Made by a program: the position numbers and the translations under genes. This document shows, piece after piece, positions 5,030 through 43,735 of a DNA stretch of 64,000 bases (position 1 is the stretch's first letter; each line of letters starts with the position of its first letter). The stretch is taken from NCBI GenBank assembly GCA_002841695.1, contig PHAN01000008.1:1-64000 (forward strand), written 5' to 3'. Under the pieces are notes generated by a model. That model made no database searches. It saw only the letters and a list, made by a program, of their open reading frames with translations, and had not been told where the DNA came from. This DNA is from Elusimicrobia bacterium HGW-Elusimicrobia-1. Its GTDB lineage: Bacteria; Elusimicrobiota; Endomicrobiia; PHAN01.

Positions 5030-5034
5030 AAACT

Positions 5035-5739: not shown

Positions 5740-5761
5740 TCAGAGGATTATCGGATAAACT

Positions 5762-6037
5762 ATGACAAAGAAAAAAGACAAAGGCCCTCTCGACGAAGTG
5801 CTCGAGATGAGCGCCTTTTATATGATGAACAAAAGATACGACAAGGCCGTGGAGGTCTTGAAGTCGGCGCTACTGCAAAATCCCGACGACGCCGAACTTA
5901 ACTACAATCTCGGACTCAACTACGAGGTTCTTAACAAAACCGAAGAAGCCATAGAGATGTTTCAGAAAGCCCTGGCGGCCAACCCCTCGCACAAACACGC
6001 ATCCGAGCATCTCTCCAAACTTATGGAAATACGATAA
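5762..6037 (+). CDS. Small TPR-repeat protein
   Basis: A 91-residue soluble protein made almost entirely of two tetratricopeptide repeats (MNKRYDKAVEVLKSALLQNP and LNYNLGLNYEVLNKTEEAIE, ending KHASEHLSKL). Such proteins are usually protein-interaction adaptors; no partner can be named. Its stop codon overlaps the ATG of pheS by one base, so translation of the two is probably coupled. No signal peptide is seen. Confidence 0.85.
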   Translation: MTKKKDKGPLDEVLEMSAFYMMNKRYDKAVEVLKSALLQNPDDAELNYNLGLNYEVLNKTEEAIEMFQKALAANPSHKHASEHLSKLMEIR

Positions 6038-7080: not shown

Positions 7081-7112
7081 TACAAATGCGAATATTTGAA
7101 AAATCCCCTTTT

Positions 7113-7199
7113 AATTCCCCCTTAGAAAAGGGGGCGAGGGGGGTTGTGTTTTCCTCGGCGATTTTACAACCCCCGTACCCCCTTTGTTAAGGGGGAATT
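7113..7199. repeat. Palindromic MITE-like element between pheS and pheT
   Basis: The left arm 7113-7147 and the right arm 7166-7199 are inverted repeats of about 34 bases with a few mismatches (AATTCCCCCTTA at the left end, TTAAGGGGGAATT at the right end), around an 18-base centre. As RNA this would form a long hairpin within the pheST transcript. The right end also supplies a GGGGG that resembles a ribosome site 9 bases before a TTG at 7205. Confidence 0.8.
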
Positions 7200-7234
7200 T
7201 ACTATTGTCCGACGCCGCGTCTTCCCATAAAAAT

Positions 7235-9646
7235 ATGCTTCTTTCATACGAGTGGCTTAAAGAATTTATCGAACTTAAAGAAACGCCCGAAGAAATCGCG
7301 CGCATACTTACGACGCTGGGTTTTGAATCTGCCGTCCGGCCGGCCAACTCCGGATTTTCGGGAATCGTCGCGGCGAAAGTCGTCTCCAAAGTTCCGCATC
7401 CCGCGGCCGATAAACTTTCGCTCTGCGAGGTCTCCGACGGCGCGGCGACGTACAAAGTCGTCTGCGGCGCGCCAAACGTGGAAGCGGGGCAGATTGTGCC
7501 TCTGGCCAAAATCGGCGCGACGGTGGGCGGCGTCAAAATAAAAAAAGCAAAACTCCGCGGCGTGGAATCCGAGGGAATGATATGCTCCGAAAGGGAACTC
7601 GGCATCGCCGACGCGTCCGAAGGCATAATGACGCTCTCGTCCGCCGAAGCCGGACGTCTCGGCAGGGATTTCGCCGAACTTTATCCTCCCGATTTCATAA
7701 TCGAAGTCGAAACGCTCCCCAACCGGCCCGATATCCTGTCGCACTACGGCGTGGCTATGGAACTCTCGGCCAAGCTGAACCGCCCCGTTAAACCCCCCGC
7801 CGCCGCCGGCGACAAAATCAGGCCCGACGGCCTCCTTGCCGACGTTGAACCGACACTGCTTGCGGGCAATACGCCCGGGTGCGAATCTTATACCGCCGTC
7901 GCCCTCGACGATGTCGCCGTGGCCGAATCGCCCGAGTGGCTCAAAAACCGTCTGCGCCTGTGCGGGTACCGCCCCATAAACGCCGCCGTCGATATTACCA
8001 ATTACGTAATGACCGAGATGGGACATCCGCTGCACGCCTTCGACCGCGACAAACTCTCAGGCGGCAAGGTCATTGTACGCGCGGCTTCGCCGGGGGAAAA
8101 AATAAAAGCCCTCGACGGCAAAACCTACGACCTCGGCGAGAGCGACATAGTCATAGCCGACGGAGCCGGCGCGGCATGCGCCATAGCCGGAATAATAGGC
8201 GGCGAAACATCGGCCGTGTCGTCTTCGACCAAAAGAATTCTGCTTGAATCGGCCGTATTCAATCCGCAAAGAGTGTTCGCCGCGCGCCGCCGGCTTAAAA
8301 TATCCACGGAGTCGTCCTACCGGTTCGAGCGCGGAATGAGCAAAGCGCGCTCCATTGCGGCCTGTCAGCGCGCCGTCGAATTGCTCAAAAACCTCTGCTC
8401 GGCAAGACCGTCGGCTATCGTGGACCACGGGGCCGGACTTCCCAAAAATAAAATAGCCGTTTTCTTTGAAAAAATCCTTTCTCATACCGGAGTAAACATA
8501 GCCGAAACCAAAGTCCGCGGGATTCTTGCGGCGCTTTCCTTTGAAATAGTCCGCGAGGAAAAAGATTTTATAGTCGTAGAGCCGCCGTCTTTCAGACGCG
8601 ACATCTTTCTTCAGGAAGACGTTATCGAGGAAATAATCAGAGTTTTCGGCTACGACAACGCGCGTTTCGATTCCGCGCCGGCGCCCATACCCGACGGGAG
8701 TTTCGCCGCCGACCGCAGACGTTTCGACTTTGTATCATCCGCCAGACGTTTTCTGGCCTCGGCCGGCTTTGTTGAAAACGTAAACTACGGAATGATAGCC
8801 CCCGGGTGGTTTTCTTACTTCGACGAAAAGCTCTGTGTTAAAATAATAAACCCGGTGTCGCCCGAAGCCGCCGCCTTGCGGCCTTCGATTTTCTGCCAGA
8901 TGTGGGAATGTTTTAGGGCAAATCTCGGCGAAGGTTACGATTCACAAATGATTTACGAAATCGGAAACATATTCTATGACGGCGCGCAAACCCGTTCGCT
9001 CGGATTATTGGCGTCGGGCAACGTATTCGGCGACAACTGGAAAAAGGCGTCTTTGGACGCCGATTTTTACTTCCTGAAAGGCATACTCGAAAAACTTTCA
9101 TTCTTCGCCTGTAAAGACATCCGGCCGGAGTTCGCCGTCGATTCCGGCGCTTCAAATCCGCCGGGCGGCGCGAAGACGCCGGATTTTCTGGCCTTCGGCA
9201 TAAACATTATTTCGGAAGAAGAGCATATCGGCCGCATTGGCCCGGTAGCGCCGTCGCTGGCTTTGGCCGCCGGAGCAAAATCACCCGTGTGGTGGGCCGA
9301 ACTCAACGTCGATATTCTTGCCGAGAAACCCCGAAGAAACCCGATTCACAAACAATATTCTGTTTTTCCGGCGTCGTCCATGGATTTCTCGCTTATGGTG
9401 GAAGAAGGAATCCCATTCGGAACTATAAAAGACAACATCCTGAGGGTTATGGGCGATGAGGCGCATCTCGTTGAGTCCGCGGCTCCGGCCGATGTCTGGC
9501 GTTCGCCTTCCGGCGAAACCAGCGTGCTCGTCAGAATAACTCTGCGCCATCCGTCAAAAACACTCGACGCCGCCTCGCTCGGCTCTCTGCACGGTAAAAT
9601 TACAGCGGGGCTGACGCAAATCCCCGGATTGAAACTAAGGGCATAA
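7235..9646 (+). CDS. pheT: Phenylalanyl-tRNA synthetase beta subunit
   Basis: Beta chain of PheST, providing tRNA binding and editing. The start at ATG 7235 gives the usual N-terminus MLLSYEWLKEFIEL and 803 residues, the normal length. Visible in order: the EMAP-II-like tRNA-binding domain (VPHPAADKLSLCEV, APNVEAGQIVPLAKIGA), B3/B4 editing region (AVDITNYVMTEMGHPLHAFD), B5 (RRDIFLQEDVIEEIIRVFGY), the inactive synthetase core, and a C-terminal anticodon-binding ferredoxin-like domain (KQYSVFPASSMDFS). A TTG at 7205 is preceded by GGGGG from the repeat and could add ten residues; the ATG has no clear ribosome site. Distance from pheS is caused by the inserted palindrome. Confidence 0.96.
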   Translation: MLLSYEWLKEFIELKETPEEIARILTTLGFESAVRPANSGFSGIVAAKVVSKVPHPAADKLSLCEVSDGAATYKVVCGAPNVEAGQIVPLAKIGATVGGVKIKKAKLRGVESEGMICSERELGIADASEGIMTLSSAEAGRLGRDFAELYPPDFIIEVETLPNRPDILSHYGVAMELSAKLNRPVKPPAAAGDKIRPDGLLADVEPTLLAGNTPGCESYTAVALDDVAVAESPEWLKNRLRLCGYRPINAAVDITNYVMTEMGHPLHAFDRDKLSGGKVIVRAASPGEKIKALDGKTYDLGESDIVIADGAGAACAIAGIIGGETSAVSSSTKRILLESAVFNPQRVFAARRRLKISTESSYRFERGMSKARSIAACQRAVELLKNLCSARPSAIVDHGAGLPKNKIAVFFEKILSHTGVNIAETKVRGILAALSFEIVREEKDFIVVEPPSFRRDIFLQEDVIEEIIRVFGYDNARFDSAPAPIPDGSFAADRRRFDFVSSARRFLASAGFVENVNYGMIAPGWFSYFDEKLCVKIINPVSPEAAALRPSIFCQMWECFRANLGEGYDSQMIYEIGNIFYDGAQTRSLGLLASGNVFGDNWKKASLDADFYFLKGILEKLSFFACKDIRPEFAVDSGASNPPGGAKTPDFLAFGINIISEEEHIGRIGPVAPSLALAAGAKSPVWWAELNVDILAEKPRRNPIHKQYSVFPASSMDFSLMVEEGIPFGTIKDNILRVMGDEAHLVESAAPADVWRSPSGETSVLVRITLRHPSKTLDAASLGSLHGKITAGLTQIPGLKLRA

Positions 9647-30066: not shown

Positions 30067-30099
30067 TTGTGGTTTCGAAATACAGTTGCGAGGATTATT

Positions 30100-31788
30100 A
30101 TGCCCAAAGCCAAAATATCCGAAATCGAGGCCGTAAGATTAAACTTTAAGCCGGTTTTGCCGGCGGTCTTGAAAAAAGGCCCCGCGCGGATAAAACCGAA
30201 ATTCGGCAAGCCGACGGAAAGCGTTTCTGACAGCGACGACCTCAGGAAACTTTTTCCGAACACTTACGGCCTGCCGACGGTAAGTTTCATCGCGGGCGAC
30301 AATACGCCGGTGTCGAAAAAAGCCCTCAAAGTCGGCGTGGTGCTTTCCGGAGGGCAGGCGCCCGGCGGACACAACGTCATCGCGGGGCTTTTCGACGGCT
30401 TGAAAAAAGCCAATCCCAAAAACAAACTCATCGGTTTTCTGGGCGGGCCGTCGGGAATACTCGACGACAAATGGCGGGAAATAACCTCGCAATATCTTGC
30501 CGGTTACAGAAACACCGGCGGATTTGATATTATTCAGTCCGGCCGCACCAAGATAGAAACGCCCGAACAATTCGAGCGGACGAAAAAAGTTTTGAGCGCC
30601 GACGAAATAGACGCTCTCGTCGTCGTAGGCGGCGACGATTCCAACACCAACGCGGCTCTTTTGGCCGAATACTTTAAAAAAGAAAATATGGACGTAAGCG
30701 TAATCGGCGTTCCCAAAACCATCGACGGCGACCTCAAAAATGATTGGGTCGAGACGTCCTTCGGCTTCGATACCACCACAAAAATCTATTCGGAACTCGC
30801 GGGCAACATCTGCCGCGACGTCAATTCGGCCCGCAAGTATTGGCATTTCATCCGCCTGATGGGAAGGAGCGCCTCTCACATAACTCTTGAAGTCGCGCTC
30901 AAAACGCGGCCCAATATAACCCTCATCGGCGAGGAAGTGCTTGACAAAAAGATGACACTCGCCGAAGTCGTCGACGGCATAGCCGCCGTGATAGCCGCGC
31001 GCGCGGGCGACAAAAAAAACTTCGGCGTGATACTCGTTCCGGAGGGCTTGATTGAGTTTATTCCCGAGATGAAAGAACTCATAACCGCCCTCAACGACGT
31101 TATGGCCGAAAACGAATCCGCCGTCAACGCGATACCCTCGGCCGACGAAAAAAAGAATTTCGTCTGCTCGCGCCTTCCCGAGAATCTCGCCGCTCTTATG
31201 AAGTCCCTGCCGCCAATAATCGCCTCGCAGCTTCTCATCGACAGAGACCCGCACGGAAACGTTCAGGTGTCGCAGATTGAGACGGAAAAACTGCTCATCG
31301 AAATGCTTAAAGTCCGCCTTTCCGAAATGAAAAAAACCGGCGCCTACGCGGGAAAATTTTCCGCCATAACGCACTTCTTCGGCTACGAAGGCCGCTGCGG
31401 AGCCCCGTCGAACTTCGACGCGAACTACACGTACGCGCTGGGATATAACGCCGCGGCGCTTGCCTTAAACGGTCTTACGGGCTATATGTCGTCCGTGCGA
31501 AAACTCGTCAAGGAATCTTCGACGTGGATCGCCGGCGGCGTGCCACTGACGACAATGATGAATATCGAAAGAAGAAAAGGCAAAGAGAAACCTGTCATCA
31601 AAAAGGCCCTTGTAAAACTCGACGGCGCTCCTTTCGCGGCGCTCCTTAAAAACCGCGACGAATGGGCGATTACGGAAGGGTACGTTTATCCGGGGCCGAT
31701 ACAATACTTCGGACCGGCGGCCGTGACGGATATGACGACAATCACGCTTAAATACGAACAATCCACGAAAAAGGAGATCTCAAGATGA
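30100..31788 (+). CDS. pfp: Pyrophosphate-dependent 6-phosphofructokinase
   Basis: Reversible phosphofructokinase of the long, plant-like PFP subgroup, 562 residues. The nucleotide/PPi site shows VVLSGGQAPGGHNVIAG, VVVGGDDSNTNAALLAEY (the GGDDS form with the second Asp that favours PPi over ATP), the catalytic PKTIDGDLKN, and MGRSASHITLEVA. Using PPi saves ATP and is common in anaerobes. Start at ATG 30100 after GAGGAT; a further upstream start at 30067 would overlap the aldolase stop. Its TGA overlaps the ATG of the next gene. Confidence 0.95.
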   Translation: MPKAKISEIEAVRLNFKPVLPAVLKKGPARIKPKFGKPTESVSDSDDLRKLFPNTYGLPTVSFIAGDNTPVSKKALKVGVVLSGGQAPGGHNVIAGLFDGLKKANPKNKLIGFLGGPSGILDDKWREITSQYLAGYRNTGGFDIIQSGRTKIETPEQFERTKKVLSADEIDALVVVGGDDSNTNAALLAEYFKKENMDVSVIGVPKTIDGDLKNDWVETSFGFDTTTKIYSELAGNICRDVNSARKYWHFIRLMGRSASHITLEVALKTRPNITLIGEEVLDKKMTLAEVVDGIAAVIAARAGDKKNFGVILVPEGLIEFIPEMKELITALNDVMAENESAVNAIPSADEKKNFVCSRLPENLAALMKSLPPIIASQLLIDRDPHGNVQVSQIETEKLLIEMLKVRLSEMKKTGAYAGKFSAITHFFGYEGRCGAPSNFDANYTYALGYNAAALALNGLTGYMSSVRKLVKESSTWIAGGVPLTTMMNIERRKGKEKPVIKKALVKLDGAPFAALLKNRDEWAITEGYVYPGPIQYFGPAAVTDMTTITLKYEQSTKKEISR

Positions 31789-33245
31789 AGATCAACGAAA
31801 AGGTTTTGGCAAAAACAATCGCCCGATGCAAAGAGCGCGGAATAATCATTCCGACTTTCGCCCAGCAGAAAGATCCCTCGAAAGTTCCGCAGAAGATAAA
31901 AGACAAACTCAAAACAATAGGGCTTCAGGACACGCACCCCTTGAATCTCTTTCGCATAACATGGAAAAATAATCCCAAAGAAAACGGCGGAGACGGGCTC
32001 TACGGGGACGTCAACTATCTGGAAATTCCCTCGGCCATATCGGGCGTGAAAGCCCGAATCGTGGGCATAGTAGGTAAATGGTTCCCGACGGGCGCGCACA
32101 AAGTCGGGGCGGCTTTCGGGTGCCTGGCTCCGCGTCTCGTCACAGGAAACTTCGATCCCGCGACGCAGAAAGCCGTGTGGCCCTCGACGGGAAACTACTG
32201 TCGCGGCGGAGCGTTCGACTGCGCGCTTCTTGCCTGCGACGCGATAGCGATACTCCCTCAGGAGATGTCCAAAGAGCGTTTCGAGTGGCTCAAAGAAATA
32301 GGCGCCAGCGAGATTTTCGCCACGCCCGGCTGCGAGTCCAACGTCAAAGAAATATACGACAAGTGCCACGAGCTCAGGAAAGAGCGCGGTGATAAAATCG
32401 TAATATTCAACCAATTCGACGAGTTCGGAAACACAATGTGGCACTACGAAGTCACGGCCTCGGCAATGGAAGAAGTTTTCAACAAAATCAAAGGCGCGCG
32501 CGGTCGCTTCTCGGCATATGTTTCGGCCACCGGCTCGGCGGGCACCATAGGCGCCGGCGAATATCTCAAAAAGAAATTCCCGACGATGAAAATAGCGGCC
32601 ACCGAGGCGTTGCAATGCCCCACGCTGTATCTAAACGGCTTCGGCGGACACAGAATCGAGGGCATAGGAGACAAGCACGTGCCGTGGGTTCACAACGTCC
32701 GCAATACCGACAACGTCGTAGCCATCGACGACGAATTCACAATGAGAGTGCTGCGCTTATTCAATGAGGAAGCCGGCAAAAAGCGTCTCCAGAAGGCCGG
32801 GGTTTCCAAGGCCGTCGTCGAAAAACTCCAACTTCTGGGAATATCGAGCATCTGCAATCTGATCGCGTCCATCAAAATGGCCAAGTACTACGAGATGAAC
32901 GAAAACGACGTGATATTCACGGTCTTCACCGACTCGGCCGCCATGTATCTGTCGCGTCTGGATGAACTCACCAAGGAACGCGGCCAATATACCGAGGAGA
33001 ACGCGGCTATCGACATTGAACACTGCCTCGGTGGCGTGGGAATCGACTGGCTTAAGGAACTCAGCTACCAGGACAGGAAAGCCATTCATAATCTGAAATA
33101 TTTCACTTGGGTGGAACAGCAGGGAAAGACGGTCGAGGAGATAAACGCCCTCTGGGAACCGGAATTCTGGGACAAGATTTTCACGCAGATCCCCGAATGG
33201 GATCGTCTCATAGAAGAGTTTAACAAGAAAACGGGATTGGCGTAA
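31785..33245 (+). CDS. PLP-dependent fold-type II enzyme of the ygeW-like cluster
   Basis: A 486-residue enzyme of the tryptophan-synthase-beta/cysteine-synthase fold. The probable Schiff-base Lys is in FPTGAHKVGAAFG, the cofactor phosphate and substrate loops in PSTGNYCRGGAFDCALLA and SATGSAGTIGAGEYLKK. It is longer than threonine dehydratase or YgeX (about 400 residues) and lacks the usual YgeX segments, so I do not call it diaminopropionate ammonia-lyase. From memory, similar "PLP-dependent protein, beta subunit" genes lie next to ygeW, ygeY and carbamate kinase in other anaerobes. A deaminating or lyase role on the amino acid released in that pathway is inferred. Strong site AAAGGAGA and ATGA overlap with pfp. 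Confidence 0.8.
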   Translation: MKINEKVLAKTIARCKERGIIIPTFAQQKDPSKVPQKIKDKLKTIGLQDTHPLNLFRITWKNNPKENGGDGLYGDVNYLEIPSAISGVKARIVGIVGKWFPTGAHKVGAAFGCLAPRLVTGNFDPATQKAVWPSTGNYCRGGAFDCALLACDAIAILPQEMSKERFEWLKEIGASEIFATPGCESNVKEIYDKCHELRKERGDKIVIFNQFDEFGNTMWHYEVTASAMEEVFNKIKGARGRFSAYVSATGSAGTIGAGEYLKKKFPTMKIAATEALQCPTLYLNGFGGHRIEGIGDKHVPWVHNVRNTDNVVAIDDEFTMRVLRLFNEEAGKKRLQKAGVSKAVVEKLQLLGISSICNLIASIKMAKYYEMNENDVIFTVFTDSAAMYLSRLDELTKERGQYTEENAAIDIEHCLGGVGIDWLKELSYQDRKAIHNLKYFTWVEQQGKTVEEINALWEPEFWDKIFTQIPEWDRLIEEFNKKTGLA

Positions 33246-33352
33246 GACACCGGGCACGCGCCCGAGTATTTCAAGCCGACCCAAAAAATCTGACCGGCCG
33301 CAGGCCGGATGTGCGGCCGAGCGCAAAGCGCGCGCCGCAAACGGAGGACTTT

Positions 33353-33811
33353 ATGGTAAGATTTGCCGTGGACAAGTCGTTGTCGCTGGAAAAACAGTCG
33401 CTGCTGAAAATGGCTCTTTCAATCTCTCAGGAGTTAACCGGTTCCGACGGCGGTTCGGTAATGCTGGTGGAAGGCGACAATCTGGTGATTCGCGGATACT
33501 CAGCGTCGGATCCTTCAATCGACGCGGCGTCCAAAATGGGAATCTCCGTAAAAGTCGGAGAACGCGCCTCCGGCAAGGCCGCCCAGACAGGCGAGTCGGT
33601 CGTCATAGTCGGAGACATAACAAAAGACAATCGTTTCTCCGGACTGCAGAAGTTCCACGAAATCAAATCCGGCGCGTCCGTGCCCGTCAAAAAAGACAAC
33701 CTTGTAAAAGGCGTCATAAACGTTCACCGCGTCAAATCCAGCGCTCCCATAACAAAAGACGACGTGGACGTAGTAAGCGTGGTCGGCAAATCTCTGGCCG
33801 AAGCGCTTTAA
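33353..33811 (+). CDS. GAF-domain protein
   Basis: About 152 residues forming a single GAF domain (LKMALSISQELTGSDGGSVMLV, GERASGKAAQTGESVVIVGD, ASVPVKKDNLVKGVINVHRVK), with no effector domain attached. GAF domains bind small ligands such as nucleotides, haem or amino-acid derivatives. Placed between the PLP enzyme and ygeY, it may sense a metabolite of that pathway. ATG 33353 follows a GGAGG site; the earlier in-frame ATG at 33311 precedes that site. Confidence 0.85.
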   Translation: MVRFAVDKSLSLEKQSLLKMALSISQELTGSDGGSVMLVEGDNLVIRGYSASDPSIDAASKMGISVKVGERASGKAAQTGESVVIVGDITKDNRFSGLQKFHEIKSGASVPVKKDNLVKGVINVHRVKSSAPITKDDVDVVSVVGKSLAEAL

Positions 33812-33865
33812 TCGGCATCGGCTTATTTTCGTTACAAAAAAATATATGAACCGGAGGCATTTTCA

Positions 33866-35071
33866 ATGGCACTGATTTCCTCGAAAGCGCTCCACGAAAG
33901 AGCGAAACACTACGAAAAAGACATGGTCAAGTTCGCGCGCGACCTGGTGGCGATTCCGTCGTTTCCCATGCAGGAAGGCCGTCTCGTTAAACGCATAGCC
34001 GCCGAAATGAAGAAGGTCGGCTTCGACAAAGTGAAAGTGGACAAGATGGGCAACATCATCGGCGTCGTCGGAAAAGGCAAGACGAAAATCATGATAGACG
34101 CCCATATCGACACGGTGGGAGTGGGCGACCCTAAAGCGTGGAAATGGGATCCTTTCAAAGGAAAGTACGAAAAGGGGATGATTTACGGAAGAGGCGCCAC
34201 CGACCAGAAACTATCTATGGTGCCTATGGTTTATGCCGGCAAAATTATCAAGGATTTGAAACTCGACGGCGACTATACCGTCTGGATGGTAGGGTCGTGT
34301 CAGGAAGAGGATTGCGACGGATTGCCCCTGCTGCACATAATTCAGAAAGAAAAGATGAAACCCGATTACGTCGTGATAACCGAGCCCACAAACCTAAAGG
34401 TTTATCGCGGTCATCGCGGCAGAATGGAAATGAAGGTCGTCGTAAAAGGCGTCTCCTGTCACGCTTCGGCGCCCGAACGGGGCGACAACGCCGTCCAGAA
34501 AATGTCTTTTATCGTGCAGGAAGTAACCAAACTAAACGTTCGTCTCAAAAAGGATAAATTCCTGGGCAAGGGCACTGTGGCCGTGACGAAAATAGAATGC
34601 CAGACGCCCTCTCTTAACGCCGTCCCCGACGAAGCCACCATTTATCTCGACAGACGCCTGACCGCCGGAGAAACTCTTAAATCGGCCGTAGCCGAGATAA
34701 AGCGTCTTCCCTCGGTAAAGAAATTCAAAGGCCGCGTCGAAGTTCTTCAATACGAGGCGATTTCATGGACGGGACTTAAAGTCGGACAGGAAAAATATTT
34801 CCCGACGTGGGTCATACCGGAGAACCACAAACTCACAAAAGCCATGGTTAAAGCGGCTTCCATCGCTCTTGAAAAAAAGCCCGTCGTGGACAAATGGACG
34901 TTCTCCACAAACGGCGTGGCCTCTATGGGGCGGCTCAAAATCCCGACCATAGGATTCGGACCGGCACACGAGATATATGCCCACCAGGTGGACGAGCGGA
35001 TGCCAGTGGAGCACCTGCGCAGAGCCGCCGTGTGTTATGCCGCGTTCCCTAAGATACTGACTTCGAAATAA
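33866..35071 (+). CDS. ygeY: YgeY-type M20 metallohydrolase
   Basis: Zinc-dependent M20 amidohydrolase, 401 residues. Metal-binding segments are IMIDAHIDTVGVGD, YGRGATDQKLSMVPMVYAG and SCQEEDCDGLPL; the dimerisation part includes GVSCHASAPERGDNA and the C-terminal His in GFGPAHEIYAHQVDE. It closely follows the YgeY group (labelled selenium-metabolism hydrolase in databases). In E. coli and gut anaerobes ygeY belongs to the ygeW/ygeX purine-degradation cluster; its substrate is probably an N-carbamoyl or acyl amino acid. No in-frame selenocysteine codon is seen. Confidence 0.9.
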   Translation: MALISSKALHERAKHYEKDMVKFARDLVAIPSFPMQEGRLVKRIAAEMKKVGFDKVKVDKMGNIIGVVGKGKTKIMIDAHIDTVGVGDPKAWKWDPFKGKYEKGMIYGRGATDQKLSMVPMVYAGKIIKDLKLDGDYTVWMVGSCQEEDCDGLPLLHIIQKEKMKPDYVVITEPTNLKVYRGHRGRMEMKVVVKGVSCHASAPERGDNAVQKMSFIVQEVTKLNVRLKKDKFLGKGTVAVTKIECQTPSLNAVPDEATIYLDRRLTAGETLKSAVAEIKRLPSVKKFKGRVEVLQYEAISWTGLKVGQEKYFPTWVIPENHKLTKAMVKAASIALEKKPVVDKWTFSTNGVASMGRLKIPTIGFGPAHEIYAHQVDERMPVEHLRRAAVCYAAFPKILTSK

Positions 35072-35076
35072 TAAAG

Positions 35077-35107
35077 GGGAGATTAGGAAATTAGGAGATT
35101 GGGAGAT
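35077..35107. repeat. Short imperfect tandem repeat before ygeW
   Basis: Repeated units close to GAGATTAGGA or GGAGATTGGG cover about 31 bases just after ygeY. The G-rich units resemble ribosome sites and produce a TTG (35099) that would extend ygeW. A similar low-complexity repeat with heptamers occurs at 51436-51522. Confidence 0.45.
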
Positions 35108-35179
35108 GAAAATCAGAAACTCTTAAATAAAAAGGAGACAGGCGCGGGAATCTCCGACGAACCGCGCCGGCAAAAACTT

Positions 35180-36376
35180 ATGACAGCCAAAATCGACGTA
35201 AACAAGGCGCTCGCAAGGATCGCCGAAATCAAGACACGTTTTTTCAACAAGGATTTCCTTCTGACGTGGATGTACAAGGCCGATGAACTTGAAGTCGTTC
35301 TTTCCCTGGCCGAAGTGCTCAAGGAACTCCACGCGCAAAATGTTTCGCTTAAAGTTTTCGACACCGGCATCGCCGTGTCGAACTTCCGCGACAACTCCAC
35401 GCGCACGAGATTTTCGTTCGCATCCGCCTGCAACCTTCTGGGACTTGCCGTGCAGGATCTCGACGAAGGCAAATCGCAAATCGCCCACGGCGAAACCGTG
35501 CGCGAGACGGCCAATATGATATCGTTTCTGACGGAAGCCGTAGGCATCAGAGACGATATGTTCATCGGCAAAGGCCATACCTATATGAAAGAGGTCTCGG
35601 ACGCCCTCGACGACGGATATAAAAACGGCGTGCTTAACCAGCGTCCGGCCATAGTAAACCTGCAGTGCGACCTCGACCACCCCACACAGGCGATGTCGGA
35701 CCTGCTCTATATCAAAAACCATTTCGGCGGATTCGACAAACTCAAAGGCAAAAAAATAGCCATGACGTGGGCGTACTCGCCTTCCTACGGCAAACCGCTT
35801 TCTGTGCCGCAGGGCGTGATAACGCTTATGTCGCGTTTCGGGATGAATGTCGCGCTGGCCTATCCCAAGGGTTACGAACTCCTGCCGGAAACCCTCGAAG
35901 TTTCAAAAAAACACGCCAAGGAATCAGGCGGCGAATTTTCCGCATCGAATTCCATGGACGAAGCGTTCAGAGACGCCGACATAGTGTATCCTAAGTCGTG
36001 GGCTTCTTACGAAGTCATGAAAAAAAGGACGGGGCTCGTCGAAAAAGGCGACAAACAGGGACTTTCCGACCTTGAAAAACAGTGCCTCGCGGAAAACGCC
36101 ACTCACAAGGACTGGACTTGCGACGAAGCCAAGATGAAACTCACCAAGGGCGGCGAAGCCGTTTATATGCACTGTCTGCCCGCCGACATTACCGGCGTTT
36201 CGTGCAAAGAGGGCGAAGTTTCGGCGGGAGTTTTCGAGAAATACCGCATCGGAACTTACAAAGAAGCGGGTTTCAAGCCGTTCGTCATAGCCGCTATGAT
36301 GATGGCCTGCCGCTTCAAGAATCCGTCGGCCGTTATCTCGGATTTGCTGAAAAAAAACGCTACGCGCGTAAAATAG
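35180..36376 (+). CDS. ygeW: Knotted carbamoyltransferase YgeW
   Basis: A member of the ornithine/aspartate carbamoyltransferase superfamily, about 398 residues. The carbamoyl-phosphate motif is FRDNSTRTRFSFASA; QRPAIVNLQCDLDHPTQAMSD, MTWAYSPSYGKPLSVPQG and YMHCLPADITGVSCKEGEV match E. coli YgeW almost word for word. It probably runs phosphorolysis of an N-carbamoyl amine, giving carbamoyl phosphate for the carbamate kinase at 38615. ATG 35180 matches the N-terminus of known YgeW; a TTG at 35099 after repeat-like GGAG units would add 27 unrelated residues. Confidence 0.93.
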   Translation: MTAKIDVNKALARIAEIKTRFFNKDFLLTWMYKADELEVVLSLAEVLKELHAQNVSLKVFDTGIAVSNFRDNSTRTRFSFASACNLLGLAVQDLDEGKSQIAHGETVRETANMISFLTEAVGIRDDMFIGKGHTYMKEVSDALDDGYKNGVLNQRPAIVNLQCDLDHPTQAMSDLLYIKNHFGGFDKLKGKKIAMTWAYSPSYGKPLSVPQGVITLMSRFGMNVALAYPKGYELLPETLEVSKKHAKESGGEFSASNSMDEAFRDADIVYPKSWASYEVMKKRTGLVEKGDKQGLSDLEKQCLAENATHKDWTCDEAKMKLTKGGEAVYMHCLPADITGVSCKEGEVSAGVFEKYRIGTYKEAGFKPFVIAAMMMACRFKNPSAVISDLLKKNATRVK

Positions 36377-36529
36377 ACGGCTGGCGCCGGCCCCCGATTA
36401 TTCCAGCCGCCCGTCTTATCCCGGCCGCGACCGGAGCGGACATTTTGCTCCCGACGGAAATCTGTAACGCCGGAGCCGACGACCTGCGAAAATCCGCAGG
36501 CGGCGCCGCGCAGATAGATTTTAATAAAA

Positions 36530-37591
36530 ATGGAAAAACTGTTGCCTTTGGCGTTACCGGACGAATGGGAAGAATACCGTCCACAGGAAATAAACAATAA
36601 CACACTAACCATATGGTTCGGACATAAAAATCGGTTTCTGCCCCTTCTCGCTTTACCGGACGACCCTAATTTTTCGCAAGACCTGCGCAATCCTCAAACG
36701 GCAAAATATGATTACAATGCCCGTTTGGATATTACCGATTATATAGTCGAGCGCGCCGCCGGGGGATTTCTTGAAAGTTATCTGCTGCCCATCCCTGCGC
36801 AGTGTTCCACGACTCCTGCATTGGGCGCGTCTGACATTCTATCTTGCGACTGGAGAAAACAATTCGACGAGATGGGTTTTACCGCCGAAAAAGGAACATT
36901 TTTAGGTGAAGAGGCCGTATTTATTATCGGTAAAAACGGTGAAAGAACTTGCCAAGCAGTCAGAATCAACGCCTTTATTATCGGCGGAGACGTACTATTT
37001 TATACAACCTTGTCCCCGAGAAATACCCCGATTCATTCCGCCGTTTGCGAGGTGACAAAAACAAGTCATCAATGGATTACATATTGCAAATGCCAATATT
37101 GCAGACCCCATCCGCGATGTTCGACTCTGGAAAAAGAAGGGCTTGTTCACTCGGAGAAAGTCAGGCCATTGTTGGAATACGTTTTTTCAGAAATCAGAAA
37201 ACGGTTGACATCAAAAAATCCAACGCAGGAGGCATGGGATATACGAAACGAAGGAGCATCATATTCAGAATATGACTGCTCCAAACTTACGCGGACGATA
37301 TATCCGTTTTTACCGCGCACGGCGCGAGAACAATACGATTATTTCAAAAATCGCGGCGCCATAATTTCTTCGCGATATGACCTCCATGAAGGGGATTTGA
37401 TATTTTTTAAGGACGGGGCGGAACAAATCAAGCATGTGGGGTATGTGGTTTCCAATATAGACGGAAACATTCAATTTATTCATTCAACCGCCAAGAAGGG
37501 AGTGAGGGATTTTGACTGGAACACAACTGGCCCCGAGGGAAACAAAAACAAATACGGTGAACTGAATTTTGCGGGGGGAGGAAGGCCGTGA
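36530..37591 (+). CDS. NlpC/P60-type cysteine hydrolase
   Basis: 353 residues. The C-terminal part (about 220-330) has the NlpC/P60 layout: catalytic Cys in YSEYDCSKLTRTIYPFL, GDLIFFKDGAEQIKHVGYVV with the His, and FIHSTAKKGV. The N-terminal 200 residues are not recognised and hold a Cys/His cluster (KCQYCRPHPRCSTLEKE). No signal peptide is visible, yet NlpC/P60 enzymes usually cut cell-wall peptides. The gene is more AT-rich than its neighbours and splits the ygeW-carbamate-kinase group. Its stop overlaps the GTG start of a gene for an exported beta-propeller protein, which could be its partner or inhibitor. Confidence 0.75.
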   Translation: MEKLLPLALPDEWEEYRPQEINNNTLTIWFGHKNRFLPLLALPDDPNFSQDLRNPQTAKYDYNARLDITDYIVERAAGGFLESYLLPIPAQCSTTPALGASDILSCDWRKQFDEMGFTAEKGTFLGEEAVFIIGKNGERTCQAVRINAFIIGGDVLFYTTLSPRNTPIHSAVCEVTKTSHQWITYCKCQYCRPHPRCSTLEKEGLVHSEKVRPLLEYVFSEIRKRLTSKNPTQEAWDIRNEGASYSEYDCSKLTRTIYPFLPRTAREQYDYFKNRGAIISSRYDLHEGDLIFFKDGAEQIKHVGYVVSNIDGNIQFIHSTAKKGVRDFDWNTTGPEGNKNKYGELNFAGGGRP

Positions 37592-38517
37592 AAAAAATTA
37601 TTTTGCCGATTGTTTTGATGTCTTGCGCGGCGGTTATGCCGGTTTGCTCGGCTGACCCGGTAAAAATATCTTTCGAAAGAGACGGATATATCTGGACAAC
37701 CATATCAAACGGCGATAAGTCCGCGCGGATTTGCAAGGGCTGTGACTCTGATATATCCCCCGACGGGAATAAATTGGTGTTCACTTATGATACCTCCAAG
37801 GGATATGCGTCCATAAACAGAAAAATCGCCGTCGTTGACTTGAATTCAGGAAAAATCAATATATTAACTTCTATCCCTGACAATAATAGTTATGGTCCCA
37901 TATGGTCGCCCGACGGAAAACAAATAGCGTTTATGCATCGGACTAACGACGGATGGGATGTGGGAATTGTAAACAGTGACGGCGACAATTTTCACCTGCT
38001 TACTCATGGCACGGGAAACAGCTGGAATATGTTCTCTTCTCCCGCATGGTCGCCCGACGGAAAATATATATTGTTCCATGATATGGAGTATCTGTACAAA
38101 ATAAATCTTGAAGGTGAAATATCCATGGCGGAAAAAATAAAAGACATTCTGGATTTTTCAACATACAGCATATGCGACGGGACAAGATTTTTACTGTCGA
38201 AAGATGAAAGATATCTGCTGATTGATCCGCCGGACGTAAGTCGTTTCGGCATGAAGGGTCTTACGGGCCCCGTTTATGCGCTCGTTGTTTATGACAGAAA
38301 GACAAAAATCGCCGCCAAAATATCTCCCGATAATTTATACGCTCATCGCCCGGACTGGGTGAACGAAAGAGAGATTATTTTCGAAGGGACAACGGAAGAG
38401 GATTTTGCGCGGATGGGCGAATGGAGGGCGCCAAGCAACATATATAAAATTTCCATTGACGGCAAAGACCTCAAATTGCTGATAAAAAACGGCGGGTCGC
38501 CATCCTGCTCGAAATGA
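37588..38517 (+). CDS. Exported TolB/PD40-type beta-propeller protein
   Basis: 309 residues with a signal peptide (KIILPIVLMSCAAVMPVCS). Repeated blades with the PD40 signature follow: CDSDISPDGNKLVFTYDT, GPIWSPDGKQIAFMHRTNDG and PAWSPDGKYILFHDMEYL, each with DG(K/N) turns. Structure like the TolB C-terminal propeller, but no TolB N-terminal domain. The GTG start (37588) overlaps the stop of the NlpC/P60 gene by four bases. An interaction with that enzyme in the periplasm is inferred from the overlap only. Confidence 0.8.
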   Translation: MKKIILPIVLMSCAAVMPVCSADPVKISFERDGYIWTTISNGDKSARICKGCDSDISPDGNKLVFTYDTSKGYASINRKIAVVDLNSGKINILTSIPDNNSYGPIWSPDGKQIAFMHRTNDGWDVGIVNSDGDNFHLLTHGTGNSWNMFSSPAWSPDGKYILFHDMEYLYKINLEGEISMAEKIKDILDFSTYSICDGTRFLLSKDERYLLIDPPDVSRFGMKGLTGPVYALVVYDRKTKIAAKISPDNLYAHRPDWVNEREIIFEGTTEEDFARMGEWRAPSNIYKISIDGKDLKLLIKNGGSPSCSK

Positions 38518-38614
38518 ATGCGTCCCGTCAGGTAAATTCAATGACCCAAAATTCTGTAAAAATACAAATCTGTCATCCCCAATGTTCCTATATTATTTCA
38601 CGGAGAACGCATAA

Positions 38615-39556
38615 ATGGGAAAAACAATCGTAGTCGCCATCGGCGGAAACTCGCTTATCAAGGACGATAAGCATATGTCGGTGCCGGATCAGTACAAAGC
38701 CGTGTGCGAGACGGCGGCTAATCTTGCCGGTCTCATAGAAGCCGGCAACCGCGTAGTCGTAACTCACGGCAACGGCCCGCAGGTCGGCTTCATACTCCTT
38801 CGCTCCGAGCATTCCAGAGGGCTTATGCACGAGGTTCCTCTTGAGGTTATAGTAGCCGACACTCAGGGAGCCATCGGCTACCAGCTGCAGCAGGCGCTCC
38901 AGAACGAACTCTGGAACCGTAAAATCAGAAAAAATGTGGTGACCGTGGTAACGCAGGCGCTCGTCGATAAAACCGATCCGGCTTTTCAGAAGCCGTCGAA
39001 ACCCATCGGGCAGTTTTATTCGGCCGAGAACGCCAAAGAGAGAATGGAAAAAGAGAAGTGGACTATGGTCGAAGACGCAGGGCGCGGATGGCGCCGCGTG
39101 GTGCCGTCGCCCAAACCGTCGCGCATAATAGAAAGCAAGGCCATTAAAAATCTGGTGTCGGAAGACGTGGTGGTGATTTCCGTCGGAGGCGGTGGAATTC
39201 CCGTAGTCGCCGACGACAAAGGCGCCCTCTCGGGCGTGGCCGCCGTTATCGACAAGGATCTGGCGTCGGCCGTCCTGGCAAAGGAAATCGGAGCCGATAT
39301 GCTCGTCATATCGACGGCCGTCCCCAAGGTTTATCTTAACTTCGGCAAGCCGGATCAGAAGTCACTCGACAAGATTACAATCAAAGAAGCCAAACAATAT
39401 ATATCCGAAGGTCACTTCAAACCCGGCTCAATGCTTCCTAAGGTGCAGGCGTGCGTTTCATTTCTGGAGGCGGGAGGAAAAGAGGCGCTCATAACTATGC
39501 CTGAAACCCTGACCGAAGCGCTCGAGGGCAAAAACGGAACTCTGATAGTAAGATGA
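38615..39556 (+). CDS. arcC: Carbamate kinase
   Basis: Makes ATP from carbamoyl phosphate and ADP, 313 residues. The sequence shows VVAIGGNSLIKDD, VVTHGNGPQVGFILLRSE, SVGGGGIPVVADDKG, LVISTAVPKVYLNFGKP, and VQACVSFLEAGGKEALIT, all hallmark segments. In the E. coli ygeW cluster the equivalent is yqeA. Linked in function to ygeW upstream, although two AT-rich genes lie between. GGAG precedes the ATG. Confidence 0.95.
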   Translation: MGKTIVVAIGGNSLIKDDKHMSVPDQYKAVCETAANLAGLIEAGNRVVVTHGNGPQVGFILLRSEHSRGLMHEVPLEVIVADTQGAIGYQLQQALQNELWNRKIRKNVVTVVTQALVDKTDPAFQKPSKPIGQFYSAENAKERMEKEKWTMVEDAGRGWRRVVPSPKPSRIIESKAIKNLVSEDVVVISVGGGGIPVVADDKGALSGVAAVIDKDLASAVLAKEIGADMLVISTAVPKVYLNFGKPDQKSLDKITIKEAKQYISEGHFKPGSMLPKVQACVSFLEAGGKEALITMPETLTEALEGKNGTLIVR

Positions 39557-39629
39557 ACTGCTCGCGGATTCGGATTTTTTAATACATAGCGCTCGCGATA
39601 TATTCATATCCAAAGAGGGGGATGAAAAA

Positions 39630-40397
39630 ATGGGGTTTAAAAAAATCGCGTATGGTTTGTTGTTTTTGTGGGGGATGTCGCTTGCGTCGCGGCTTTACGC
39701 TCCGCCGCCCGGATGGGTAGAAACCAGACCGACAATTCAGGAAGAGATAGCGGAATACGAAAAAAAGCGCGTTCTCTCGCCTCGCGCCTCCGCGCTAAAA
39801 AATATTTTTGAGGAATTAAAAATAAATCCCGCCTCGCCGGCGCTGCAAGCCGAGTATCTGCAATATTTCCCCGAGAATCAAAGGGACTTTGACGCTATAT
39901 TCGGGTATGATATGGATGCTCCCGGATGGCTTGAGGGCGCGAAGGAATTATATAGAAGCGGCAATGAGTATATCCTGATTCTTGAAAAGTTCAATCGGCG
40001 ATATATGCCTTATATCTGTAAGATATCGCTTGATATTGCTAAAGAGAGTTCAGCTTTTGAGGTTGACAGATACGGCGAACTTAGAATGTTAATGACGGGT
40101 TTACTGTTTAAAAATCCCGAAATTTTCCGGAAAAAACTTTTTTCGCTCGCTCCGCCAGAACGCGCCGCCGCTATTCGCTTTGCGATACAGCACATATATG
40201 GCGAGCAATTTCCCGGATTCTTTGCAAAATTGCGCAAGGATGGCGATAACGAATTCATTTCTCTTATCGGAGATGCCATAAAGTGGGGCGTGGGGTTGGA
40301 TATGGGATGTTCTTGCAGATTGTTACCGCCCGACGCCACGAGTTATATAATAAATATATCAAGCGACACCGCCGAAGGCGGATGTGAACATCACTAA
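39630..40397 (+). CDS. Unknown exported protein
   Basis: 255 residues with a signal peptide (FKKIAYGLLFLWGMSLASRL). The rest is helical and not recognised: PPPGWVETRPTIQEEIAEYE near the N-terminus, a middle part FNRRYMPYICKISLDIAKES and a Cys-rich end (DMGCSCRLLPPD, EGGCEHH). The pattern of helices could be a divergent HEAT or TPR solenoid. The gene is AT-rich and has a GAGGGGGA site upstream. It belongs to the accessory stretch after carbamate kinase and has no clear operon partner. Confidence 0.6.
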   Translation: MGFKKIAYGLLFLWGMSLASRLYAPPPGWVETRPTIQEEIAEYEKKRVLSPRASALKNIFEELKINPASPALQAEYLQYFPENQRDFDAIFGYDMDAPGWLEGAKELYRSGNEYILILEKFNRRYMPYICKISLDIAKESSAFEVDRYGELRMLMTGLLFKNPEIFRKKLFSLAPPERAAAIRFAIQHIYGEQFPGFFAKLRKDGDNEFISLIGDAIKWGVGLDMGCSCRLLPPDATSYIINISSDTAEGGCEHH

Positions 40398-40430
40398 TCA
40401 GAGCCAGCGCGATAAACGGAGTACTGCGGC

Positions 40431-41375
40431 ATGAAACAAAAAAATATTTTCTCGTCGGAAACAGTCAAAGAGATAGAAGGTATCGGCCCCAAGACCGGCA
40501 AAGTCCTTGCCGATGCCGGCATTAAAACGCTGGAAGATTTCCGACGGGCGGACATAAAACGACTTAGTAAAACGACGGGGATTGCCGGGCGGGTTTTGTC
40601 GGCATGGAAATCGTCAGCGGTATTGCAGCGGATTATCGGCATAGACCGTCAGATAGCGGAAGTCCTCGTCAAAAACAACATACGTGATTTAATTGTCTTG
40701 CGCAATGCTAATCCGAAGAAAATTCTCGAAATAATCAAGTCCGCCCGCGAACCGAAAGACAAGTACAACATCATTCCCGACACTTACACGAAAATCGTTA
40801 CTCTTGAAAAAGTTTTGATGTGGCAGTGCTCCGTTAACACAAGTCATATTGCGCCCGGCGGATTTGGCGCTCCCGCCAGATTGTCCGCCGACGGCTATAT
40901 AAACATTTGGATAATCAGAGAATATGAAACGAAGTTTTCCACATTGGGTTCTATTTTTATCGCGGGCAGACATATTTACACTTTAGAACCGCCGGATCGC
41001 AACAATGCCGCTACCGACAATTATCTTACAGCCGGAAGAATTTTTCCGGGCAGTTACTCGTCCTTTGTCAGAACAGACGGCACCCGCGGTTGGAGGATAG
41101 AATTAAAAAATGTCCCCGCGAGGAGCGATATCCAAATTCATAAGGGCAGTCATCCTGAACACACGTGGGGGTGTATTTTGCCCGGAATGGACAAAGGGAA
41201 TGATAGAGTGTATGATAGTGACACTGCGATGAAAACTATTAAGGCCCAAGTGGAATCGTCGGGGACGAATCCCGATATTACGGTTAATGTTTGCGGCGTG
41301 CCCATAAGTATAATCAATGAGCCGCCCACTCAGCCGCCGTCCACGCCGCCGACGTCTTCCGGCGGCGGGTGGTAA
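40431..41375 (+). CDS. Helix-hairpin-helix domain fused to DUF5675-like domain
   Basis: 314 residues. Residues about 8-110 contain two helix-hairpin-helix units (IEGIGPKTGKVLADAGIKTL and IIGIDRQIAEVLVKNNIRDL), similar to DUF4332. Residues about 155-280 resemble DUF5675 (STLGSIFIAGRHIYTLEPPD, GRIFPGSYSSFVRTDGTRGW, IHKGSHPEHTWGCILPG), a domain found in phage and secreted proteins, in which a His and the HxxxxTxGC part may be functional. The end is Pro/Thr-rich (PPTQPPSTPPTSSGGGW). No signal peptide. A DNA-binding-like HhH module joined to this domain is unexpected. Function unknown; it is followed by the isoprenoid-like gene. Confidence 0.7.
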   Translation: MKQKNIFSSETVKEIEGIGPKTGKVLADAGIKTLEDFRRADIKRLSKTTGIAGRVLSAWKSSAVLQRIIGIDRQIAEVLVKNNIRDLIVLRNANPKKILEIIKSAREPKDKYNIIPDTYTKIVTLEKVLMWQCSVNTSHIAPGGFGAPARLSADGYINIWIIREYETKFSTLGSIFIAGRHIYTLEPPDRNNAATDNYLTAGRIFPGSYSSFVRTDGTRGWRIELKNVPARSDIQIHKGSHPEHTWGCILPGMDKGNDRVYDSDTAMKTIKAQVESSGTNPDITVNVCGVPISIINEPPTQPPSTPPTSSGGGW

Positions 41376-41380
41376 AAAAT

Positions 41381-42493
41381 ATGAACGGCGGACATTATTT
41401 CAACTCCGTCGCAAAAGAACAGGTTTTGGCCGTTCTTGAAAAGAACGGAATGCTCCCGCCCGATAAAACATACGAACGGGTCGTCAAAAACAAAATCGCG
41501 CTGGGTCAAAAACTTTGGGATACGGTTATCGGTGATGCCATAGGTCAAGAATTGCGTGAATTTTGTGAGACCTCAATAAAAGAGCGGGGGAGATTTTATC
41601 ATATCGAACATATCCCAAGATACGCCGCATTCGGACACGATATAGCGGATTGCTTTTGCCGTTTATTCGGGGTCTCGGAAAATACGGCGAGCGATATCGC
41701 CGCCGCCGGAGCGTTATTGAATTCTTACGCCGCCCTTTTCGACAAAATCTGTGATGATTACACCGAATTGCGTCCGCATCTCATGCGCCGGTGTTCGCCT
41801 GAAATTTTGTCCCGTGCGGCGTCGCTCACGCTATCGGACACAAAACCATTTTTTAGATTAAAAGAAAACGACGCTCCGTTGGTCAAAATCGTTGTTCTTT
41901 TGATTAGAGAATATTTCAACAGGTGTGCGGCTATACTTGATTGTTCGGGAGGCGATAAAATCCGCGCGGAATTTCAAAACACGGTTTCGCTACTTTATAA
42001 ATCGGAATTAACGAGTATAAATCTCACATTCGCCGCGAGAATGTCCGGGAAAAGTGTATATAAGATTTTACGGAATAAGAGCTCTTTGCTTATATGGCTA
42101 TTGGTTTTGCCTTGTTTATCGCCTCCCGCAAGGAAGTGCGGCGGAAAATTAAGCCGGCTAAAGGAAGCGGTTCTGGATTTGGGCGACGTATTTTGGATAT
42201 TGGATGATATTGTGGACTCCTCGGAGGATTTGAGTTGCGTCAGATGGGGTTATCCGACATTGCAATTTACAGGGCGAGTTTTTTTAGAAAACAGAGATTG
42301 TGCGTCGATTTTAGACGATATGCTTAATCGCGGCATAATATCATCGGCAGCCGAAAATATGTGCATCAAATATCGAAACGCAAAAAGAGAGTTGGAAAAG
42401 ATGACACACAACATCGTTGATTTTGATAAAATATTTCTCCCATGGTTCAGGATGTGGATTGATTCTACGGGTTGCGCATATTTTCGGGAGTAA
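41381..42493 (+). CDS. Class I isoprenoid-synthase-like protein
   Basis: 370 residues, mostly alpha-helical. Two Asp-rich segments resemble class I terpenoid/prenyl-diphosphate synthases: LFDKICDDYTEL (about 119-130) and LGDVFWILDDIVDSSED (about 267-283), the latter like the second DDxxD motif. A true first DDxxD is not perfect. Overall identity to known prenyl synthases appears low; it fits the uncharacterised class 1 isoprenoid biosynthesis enzyme group. The ATG at 41381 is preferred; GTG 41369 overlaps the previous stop. AT-rich like its neighbours. A made-to-order lipid or terpenoid product is possible but unproven. Confidence 0.6.
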   Translation: MNGGHYFNSVAKEQVLAVLEKNGMLPPDKTYERVVKNKIALGQKLWDTVIGDAIGQELREFCETSIKERGRFYHIEHIPRYAAFGHDIADCFCRLFGVSENTASDIAAAGALLNSYAALFDKICDDYTELRPHLMRRCSPEILSRAASLTLSDTKPFFRLKENDAPLVKIVVLLIREYFNRCAAILDCSGGDKIRAEFQNTVSLLYKSELTSINLTFAARMSGKSVYKILRNKSSLLIWLLVLPCLSPPARKCGGKLSRLKEAVLDLGDVFWILDDIVDSSEDLSCVRWGYPTLQFTGRVFLENRDCASILDDMLNRGIISSAAENMCIKYRNAKRELEKMTHNIVDFDKIFLPWFRMWIDSTGCAYFRE

Positions 42494-42499
42494 TTGAAA

Positions 42500-43735
42500 A
42501 TGAAAAAAATCCTCGGATACCGCTGTCTGGACTGCGGCAAAGAAATAAAATACGAGCCGCTCAGATACCTCTGCGACTGCGGGGGGAATCTCGACGTGGT
42601 TTACGACTACGCCGCGATAAAAAAAACGCTGACCCGCCGGTCGCTTGAAAGCAATTATCGTCTTGACCACTGGCGTTACCTCGACGTCCTGCCGCTCGCA
42701 AATCTCGACAAAATACCCAATCTTCAGGTCGGATGGACACCCGTTTATAAAACCCCGCGATTAGCCAAGGCGCTCGGCGCAGGGCAGGTTTTCATAAAGG
42801 ACGATTCGCGCAATCCTTCGGCGTCTTTCAAAGACAGAGCGTCGTCGGTGGCTCTGGCTTACGCCCGCGAAAACGGCGTAAAAAAAATCGTGGCCGCTTC
42901 CACCGGCAACGCGGGCGCGGCTCTGGCTTGCATGGCGGCAAGCGTGGGTTTTCCGTGCGTGATAATAGTTCCTAAATCCGCGCCCAAGGCAAAGATTGCC
43001 CAGCTTATGAACTTCGGCGCGACGGTCATCGCCGTCGACGGCATGTACGACGACGCTTATGACCTCTCCGTAAAAGCCACTCAACAATTCGGATGGTACA
43101 ACCGCAACACCGGATATAACCCCATTACCCGCGAAGGCAAAAAAACCTGCGGACACGAAATCTGCGAGCAGTTCGGATGGACGCCGCCGGATTATGTCCT
43201 TGTGTCCGTGGGCGACGGCAACATTATAAGCGGCATCTGGAAAGGTTTCAAGGATATGAAAGCGCTGGGGCTCGTCGACAAACTGCCGAAGATGGTCGCC
43301 GTACAGTCCGAAAAATCGAACGCGGTTTCTCTGGCGTACGCCACCGCCGCGAAAAATCCTTCCTCAAAAATCGAAATAATGCCGGTTCACGCCTCGACTA
43401 TCGCCGATTCAATATCCGTCGATATGCCCAGAGACGGCATCGCCGCCGTGCGCGCGTTGATTGAATCCGGCGGATTCGCCGTGGAAGTCGCCGACGAGGA
43501 AATCATAGCGGCGATATCCGTCTGCGCACGCGAAACCGGCGTATTTCCGGAGCCGGCAGGCGCGGCATCCGTCGCGGGACTCAAAAAAATCGCATTCCGC
43601 ATAAAGGATTCCGAAACGGCTTTGTGCGTAGTCACCGGTTCGGGGCTTAAAGATATCGCGGCGGCATCCAAATCGGTCGGCGAGCCGCCCGTGATAGCGC
43701 CCACCGTCGACGCCCTCTCGAAACTCCTCCAATAA
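42500..43735 (+). CDS. thrC: Threonine synthase
   Basis: PLP enzyme converting O-phosphohomoserine to threonine, about 411 residues. The N-terminus has a small zinc-ribbon-like part (YRCLDCGKEI, LCDCGGNLD) typical of one ThrC class. The Schiff-base Lys is in NPSASFKDRASSVAL, the phosphate loop in ASTGNAGAALACMAA, and the Gly-rich VSVGDGNIISGIWKGF follows. Start ATG 42500 preferred over TTG 42494. Codon use returns to the GC-richer style of the genome core. Closeness to the PLP enzyme at 31785 is not a sign of shared function. Confidence 0.9.
   Translation: MKKILGYRCLDCGKEIKYEPLRYLCDCGGNLDVVYDYAAIKKTLTRRSLESNYRLDHWRYLDVLPLANLDKIPNLQVGWTPVYKTPRLAKALGAGQVFIKDDSRNPSASFKDRASSVALAYARENGVKKIVAASTGNAGAALACMAASVGFPCVIIVPKSAPKAKIAQLMNFGATVIAVDGMYDDAYDLSVKATQQFGWYNRNTGYNPITREGKKTCGHEICEQFGWTPPDYVLVSVGDGNIISGIWKGFKDMKALGLVDKLPKMVAVQSEKSNAVSLAYATAAKNPSSKIEIMPVHASTIADSISVDMPRDGIAAVRALIESGGFAVEVADEEIIAAISVCARETGVFPEPAGAASVAGLKKIAFRIKDSETALCVVTGSGLKDIAAASKSVGEPPVIAPTVDALSKLLQ

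Follow-up and report, generated by a model that had tools for sequence, protein, structure and literature searches.

Two overlapping genes at positions 36530-38517 of a 64,000-nucleotide stretch of the genome of Elusimicrobia bacterium HGW-Elusimicrobia-1 (assembly GCA_002841695.1, contig PHAN01000008.1, positions 1 to 64,000; this whole stretch is referred to as the window) probably form an acquired polymorphic-toxin cassette, in which a putative wall-cutting effector and its putative immunity protein would serve in interbacterial competition. The first gene encodes an NlpC/P60-type peptidase without a signal peptide, and the second an exported beta-propeller. The argument is one of comparative anatomy in two genomes, that of the window (G000; 2.06 Mb, 96.9% complete) and that of a sister species of the same genus (G001; 89% complete); G101 denotes a genome from another family. 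The effector-immunity pair of the original prediction is the best-supported explanation because a second pair is present in the same genome, enzyme and propeller strictly co-occur, the window pair is inserted into a conserved gene cluster, and in the sister species the C-terminal peptidase domain is swapped together with a new exported partner. The check for secretion systems suggested with that prediction was negative for a type VI secretion sheath, gp25 and VirD4. The features of the pair are as follows.

36530..37591, + strand: putative effector, a 353-residue NlpC/P60 peptidoglycan peptidase without a signal peptide (Pfam NLPC_P60, E=1.6e-9; paralogue 60% identical)
36530..37213, + strand: N-terminal domain, residues 1-228, a probable trafficking or adaptor module (from alignment; also present in the M15-type protein of G001)
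37034..37120, + strand: Cys/His cluster H169-x3-C173-x6-H180-x5-C186-x-C188-x2-C191-x2-H194-x2-C197, a probable zinc site (invariant in 3/3 N-terminal domains)
37253..37507, + strand: NlpC/P60 catalytic domain, residues 242-326, with triad C250, H302 and H318 (Pfam; alignment to E. coli Spr/MepS structures 2k1g and 8xud)
37588..38517, + strand: putative immunity protein, an exported 309-residue PD40/TolB-type beta-propeller with a GTG start (Pfam PD40; Foldseek TolB, E 4e-12; found only beside the enzyme)
37588..37653, + strand: predicted propeller signal peptide MKKIILPIVLMSCAAVMPVCSA (from sequence and hydrophobicity; cleavage site placed by eye)
36377..38614, + strand: segment between ygeW and arcC, taken to be acquired (absent from G001 and G101; G+C content at third codon positions (GC3) lower than in the flanks)

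Organisation of the gene pair

The C-terminal part of the first protein scores 38 bits against the Pfam NLPC_P60 profile, over a cutoff of 23, and its residues C250, H302 and H318 align with the catalytic residues of E. coli Spr/MepS. The third triad position is His in the window enzyme and Asp in the paralogue described below, and Asp is permitted at this position in the NlpC/P60 family. With both a profile match and a Cys-His-polar triad, the enzyme is by sequence a member of the NlpC/P60 (C40) family. It has no signal peptide, as originally proposed, because its reading frame is closed by a stop codon shortly upstream of the start, the most hydrophobic 10-mer in its first 50 residues reaches a mean Kyte-Doolittle value of 0.96, and the paralogue begins at the same place. 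The second protein begins with MKKIILPIVLMSCAAVMPVCSA, and a hydrophobic 10-mer mean of 2.73 on the same scale (2.22 in its paralogue) bears out the earlier claim that the propeller is exported. It is unlikely to be a lipoprotein, because the cysteines are missing from the paralogue, which has a signal peptide as well.

The second protein matches Pfam PD40 at E=5e-14 (52 bits, cutoff 20.9), with DPPIV_N barely above its own cutoff, and a Foldseek search with a structural model of moderate confidence (predicted local distance difference test score, pLDDT, 68) returned TolB as the top match (probability 1.00, template modelling score 0.56). With PD40 repeats and a propeller fold, it is on the model a TolB/PD40 beta-propeller, and its length and the TolB match suggest that it is complete and six-bladed, the model not being confident; its 309 residues compare with about 400-440 in solved TolB chains. 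It is not the TolB of the Tol-Pal system itself, its score being 51 bits against an equivalog cutoff of 343.

The stop codon of the enzyme gene and the GTG start of the propeller gene overlap in the four bases GTGA, exactly as first noted. Such an overlap is by itself ordinary, and another gene pair of the window has one (30067-31788 and 31785-33245). What goes beyond chance is that the same pair, with the same signal-peptide asymmetry and the same 4-bp overlap, is repeated at an unrelated locus.

A second pair in the same genome

The repeat lies on contig 10 of G000, where an enzyme and a propeller that are 60% and 54% identical to those of the window stand in the same order, with the same overlap and the same asymmetry, flanked by an FMN-binding-like gene and hppA (names assigned by eye). 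In G001 the contig ends 124 bp upstream of hppA, so that the emptiness of this site could not be compared there. Between the two enzymes the N-terminal domain is more diverged (56% identity) than the catalytic domain (67%). Orthologues of the propeller (E<=1e-15) were found only in G000 among 335 genomes of the phylum, always adjoining the enzyme, and the full-length form of the enzyme is likewise confined to G000 within the phylum. Duplicated and confined to this one genome, enzyme and propeller therefore travel and persist together.

This association bears on the suggestion that the enzyme is cytoplasmic and, for example, processes recycled muropeptides as YkfC does, and that the exported propeller is merely co-transcribed with it. 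Such an enzyme would need no signal peptide, and operons often combine proteins of unrelated location; however, enzyme and propeller lie side by side at two unrelated loci, no propeller was found on its own, and in the sister species the peptidase domain and the exported partner have both been replaced. We consider a purely cytoplasmic role very unlikely.

Insertion into a metabolic gene cluster

The window pair interrupts ygeW and arcC within a ygeX-ygeY-ygeW-arcC-like cluster, whose genes we take to be the counterparts of those so named in E. coli. The genes ygeY, ygeW and arcC are contiguous in G001, where the last two lie about 100 bp apart, and the order ygeY-ygeW-arcC-PALP is uninterrupted in G101. 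The pair has a GC3 of 0.45-0.49 as against 0.63-0.67 in the flanking genes, and the contig 10 pair one of 0.38-0.40 as against 0.58-0.66 in its flanks. By these comparisons of gene order and composition, segment 36377..38614 is acquired.

The cluster as a whole (31785-43735) is similar to ygeX-ygeY-ygeW-yqeA of E. coli, and a ygeW-like gene (E<=1e-80) is present in 7 of 150 relatives, G000 included. A second AT-rich insert lies at 39630-42493, between arcC and the PALP gene, which are contiguous in G101. It encodes an exported 255-residue orphan, a 314-residue HHH/DUF4332 protein that lacks a signal peptide, has a C-terminal DUF5675 and shows an IHKG...GCILPG motif, and a 374-residue orphan containing the motif DDIVDSSED. 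Of these genes, the first two repeat the signal-peptide asymmetry and may form another effector-immunity set.

The window pair might also be the remnant of a phage or tailocin lysis module, with the enzyme as its endolysin or tail lysin and the propeller as a passenger. Endolysins often lack a signal peptide, and the NlpC domain of the enzyme weakly matches endolysin and tail protein families among the PHROGs. However, no phage gene was recognised near either copy, the neighbours being mostly housekeeping genes; the N-terminal domain is absent from the IMG/VR and phage records searched; and the pairing with an exported propeller is conserved and has so far been seen outside any prophage. This origin appears highly improbable. 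Searches of plasmid, phage and IMG/VR sequences with the enzyme returned general NlpC/P60 matches or none; a match to MT837326 that extended back to residue 185 was discarded as a spurious extension outside the peptidase domain.

Exchange of the peptidase domain and its partner in a sister species

Residues 1-228 of the enzyme match nothing in Pfam, NCBIfam, PHROGs, PADLOC or the PDB sequences. Among 341 genomes of the phylum this N-terminal domain was matched only in G000 and G001, and a search of genome contigs with the domain alignment matched only the contig of G001, a further alignment giving no match there. All eight Cys/His positions of its cluster (8/8) are kept in the three members, and the domain is probably a zinc-binding adaptor or delivery module.

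The G001 protein shares this domain (41% identity in a trimmed alignment, 35% by tblastn). Its last 120 residues differ from NlpC/P60, contain SRHYSGNAVDLR...EPHIHIEY and carry H-x6-D and HxH, the zinc signature of LAS/M15 peptidases; among PDB sequences they match Hedgehog N-domains, which have the same fold (E about 0.003), and in Pfam they match HH_signal and Peptidase_M15_3, both below cutoff. The motif and these similarities point to an M15/LAS-like wall peptidase. No propeller orthologue was found in G001 at E<=1e-15. The partner there is an exported 211-residue open reading frame unrelated to the propeller, which starts no more than 2 bases from the peptidase stop if the MRNGALL start is used, and which, like the propeller, matched nothing in the plasmid search. 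A weak PDB match of this partner to BH3703 (E=0.03, 39 residues) was not relied on. The G001 cassette has a GC3 of 0.37-0.38 and is AT-rich relative to its neighbours. In the region 3647-8635 of locus L014 it lies between a gene for a 678-residue orphan protein and two zinc-ribbon genes, which may be part of the system or of a host locus that it interrupts, and its exported partner (4777-5337) contains DFNGDAVNDYAVLL, which may resemble the calcium-binding loops of VCBS/FG-GAP repeats.

A constant N-terminal domain is thus joined to differing C-terminal domains, NlpC/P60 in G000 and M15/LAS-like in G001, in a single swap, and the adjoining partner changes with the toxin domain, the propeller accompanying NlpC and the unrelated 211-residue protein accompanying M15. 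Because the putative toxin domains are swapped together with their partners, the family can be regarded as a polymorphic toxin, and the combination of one N-terminal domain with two kinds of wall peptidase, where each kind comes with a separate exported protein, corresponds to the polymorphic toxin-immunity arrangement of Zhang et al. (PMC3482391).

An alternative explanation is self-directed wall remodelling, in which the enzyme would be released by an unusual route and would be regulated or localised by the propeller, in the manner of TolB-style envelope maintenance. Both NlpC/P60 enzymes and TolB propellers belong to the usual envelope proteins, and the fold nearest to the propeller is that of TolB; on the other side, neither copy of the enzyme has a signal peptide, the pair is missing from nearly the whole phylum and is inserted into a metabolic cluster, and the catalytic domain has been swapped. 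We consider wall remodelling unlikely.

Proposed mechanism and delivery

As an effector-immunity pair, the two genes would act as follows. The first would encode a cytoplasmic effector, composed of a genus-specific N-terminal delivery or adaptor domain and a C-terminal NlpC/P60 peptidase, which would cut the peptidoglycan stem peptides of rivals or of non-immune sister cells. The second gene would be translationally coupled to the first, and its TolB-like propeller would reach the periplasm via Sec and bind the peptidase there, probably covering the active site as Tsi1 does that of Tse1.

Several observations weigh against this interpretation. The original prediction had suggested a search for secretion systems elsewhere in the genome, and the families tested did not provide one. 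The sheath protein VipB/TssC of the type VI secretion system (T6SS) was not detected in G000 or G001 by a search in which the E. coli control matched, nor was the gp25 baseplate family (GPW_gp25), for which positive controls matched, nor the VirD4/TraG coupling protein of type IV secretion systems (T4SS; PF02534), for which five controls matched. The search for the gp19 tube family was uninformative, as it gave no match in the controls either. These searches covered VipB/TssC, gp25, gp19 and VirD4, the sheath of extracellular contractile injection systems (PF04984) and the type VII and type IX secretion systems lying outside them. The producing genome therefore shows neither the T6SS expected of a T6SS amidase effector (Tae) nor the VirD4 expected of an X-T4SS effector. 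An AlphaFold model of the enzyme built from two sequences reached a pLDDT of 34, at which neither its fold nor a complex could be examined, and the assignment of the G001 C-terminal domain to the M15/LAS-like peptidases is statistically weak. Lastly, the known proteins with this N-terminal domain number three, from two genomes, so that the polymorphic pattern rests on one swap.

Comparison with known systems

Tse1 is a lone catalytic domain delivered by the T6SS, whereas the window enzyme has a 228-residue N-terminal domain and no T6SS sheath was detected in its genome. In its architecture the window pair is otherwise like Tse1-Tsi1 (Tae1-Tai1) of the Pseudomonas aeruginosa H1-T6SS, in which an NlpC/P60-fold wall peptidase and a periplasmic partner are encoded in a two-gene operon (PMC3391265). 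Tsi1 comprises three sheets that resemble part of the propeller of DPP IV, and one of its loops enters the Tse1 active site (PMC3391265). Unlike Tsi1, the window propeller is longer and of the PD40/TolB type, and no Tsi1 structure is among its PDB sequence matches. The X-Tfe/X-Tfi pair XAC2609-XAC2610 of the Xanthomonas T4SS likewise pairs a cytoplasmic wall hydrolase that carries a delivery domain with XAC2610, a signal-bearing propeller-like inhibitor that is required against self-intoxication (PMC10933484). In contrast to the window enzyme, XAC2609 is a GH19 glycosidase delivered by the T4SS through an XVIPCD secretion signal, and no VirD4 homologue was found in the window genome. NlpC/P60 has already been listed as a toxin domain of polymorphic toxins, and those with Tox-NLPC/P60 share with the window enzyme a constant N-terminal trafficking domain, an exchangeable C-terminal toxin and an adjoining partner gene (PMC3482391), although the N-terminal domain of the window enzyme matches no library model.

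The original statement that a beta-propeller would be new as an immunity protein went too far. Because Tsi1 is a partial propeller, and XAC2610 and PliI-Ah have been described as sharing its topology and inhibitory manner (PMC10933484), there is already precedent for propeller-like immunity to a wall hydrolase. What sets the window pair apart is the longer propeller of PD40/TolB type, together with the N-terminal domain and a genome that seems to have neither a T6SS nor a VirD4-type T4SS.

Most known wall-targeting effector-immunity pairs come from bacteria that have a T6SS or T4SS. It is conceivable, and we put this forward tentatively and with some doubt, that the Cys/His-bearing N-terminal domain represents a route, not described so far, by which wall-cutting toxins are delivered in Elusimicrobiota without a T6SS and a VirD4-type T4SS, and that a complete propeller of the TolB type was recruited for dedicated immunity. 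A modular toxin family on an orphan N-terminal domain, in two Elusimicrobiota genomes, would offer a handle on how such bacteria might fight their neighbours, and a full propeller inhibitor would extend the theme of Tsi1, XAC2610 and PliI, in which propeller-like proteins have repeatedly become inhibitors of wall hydrolases.
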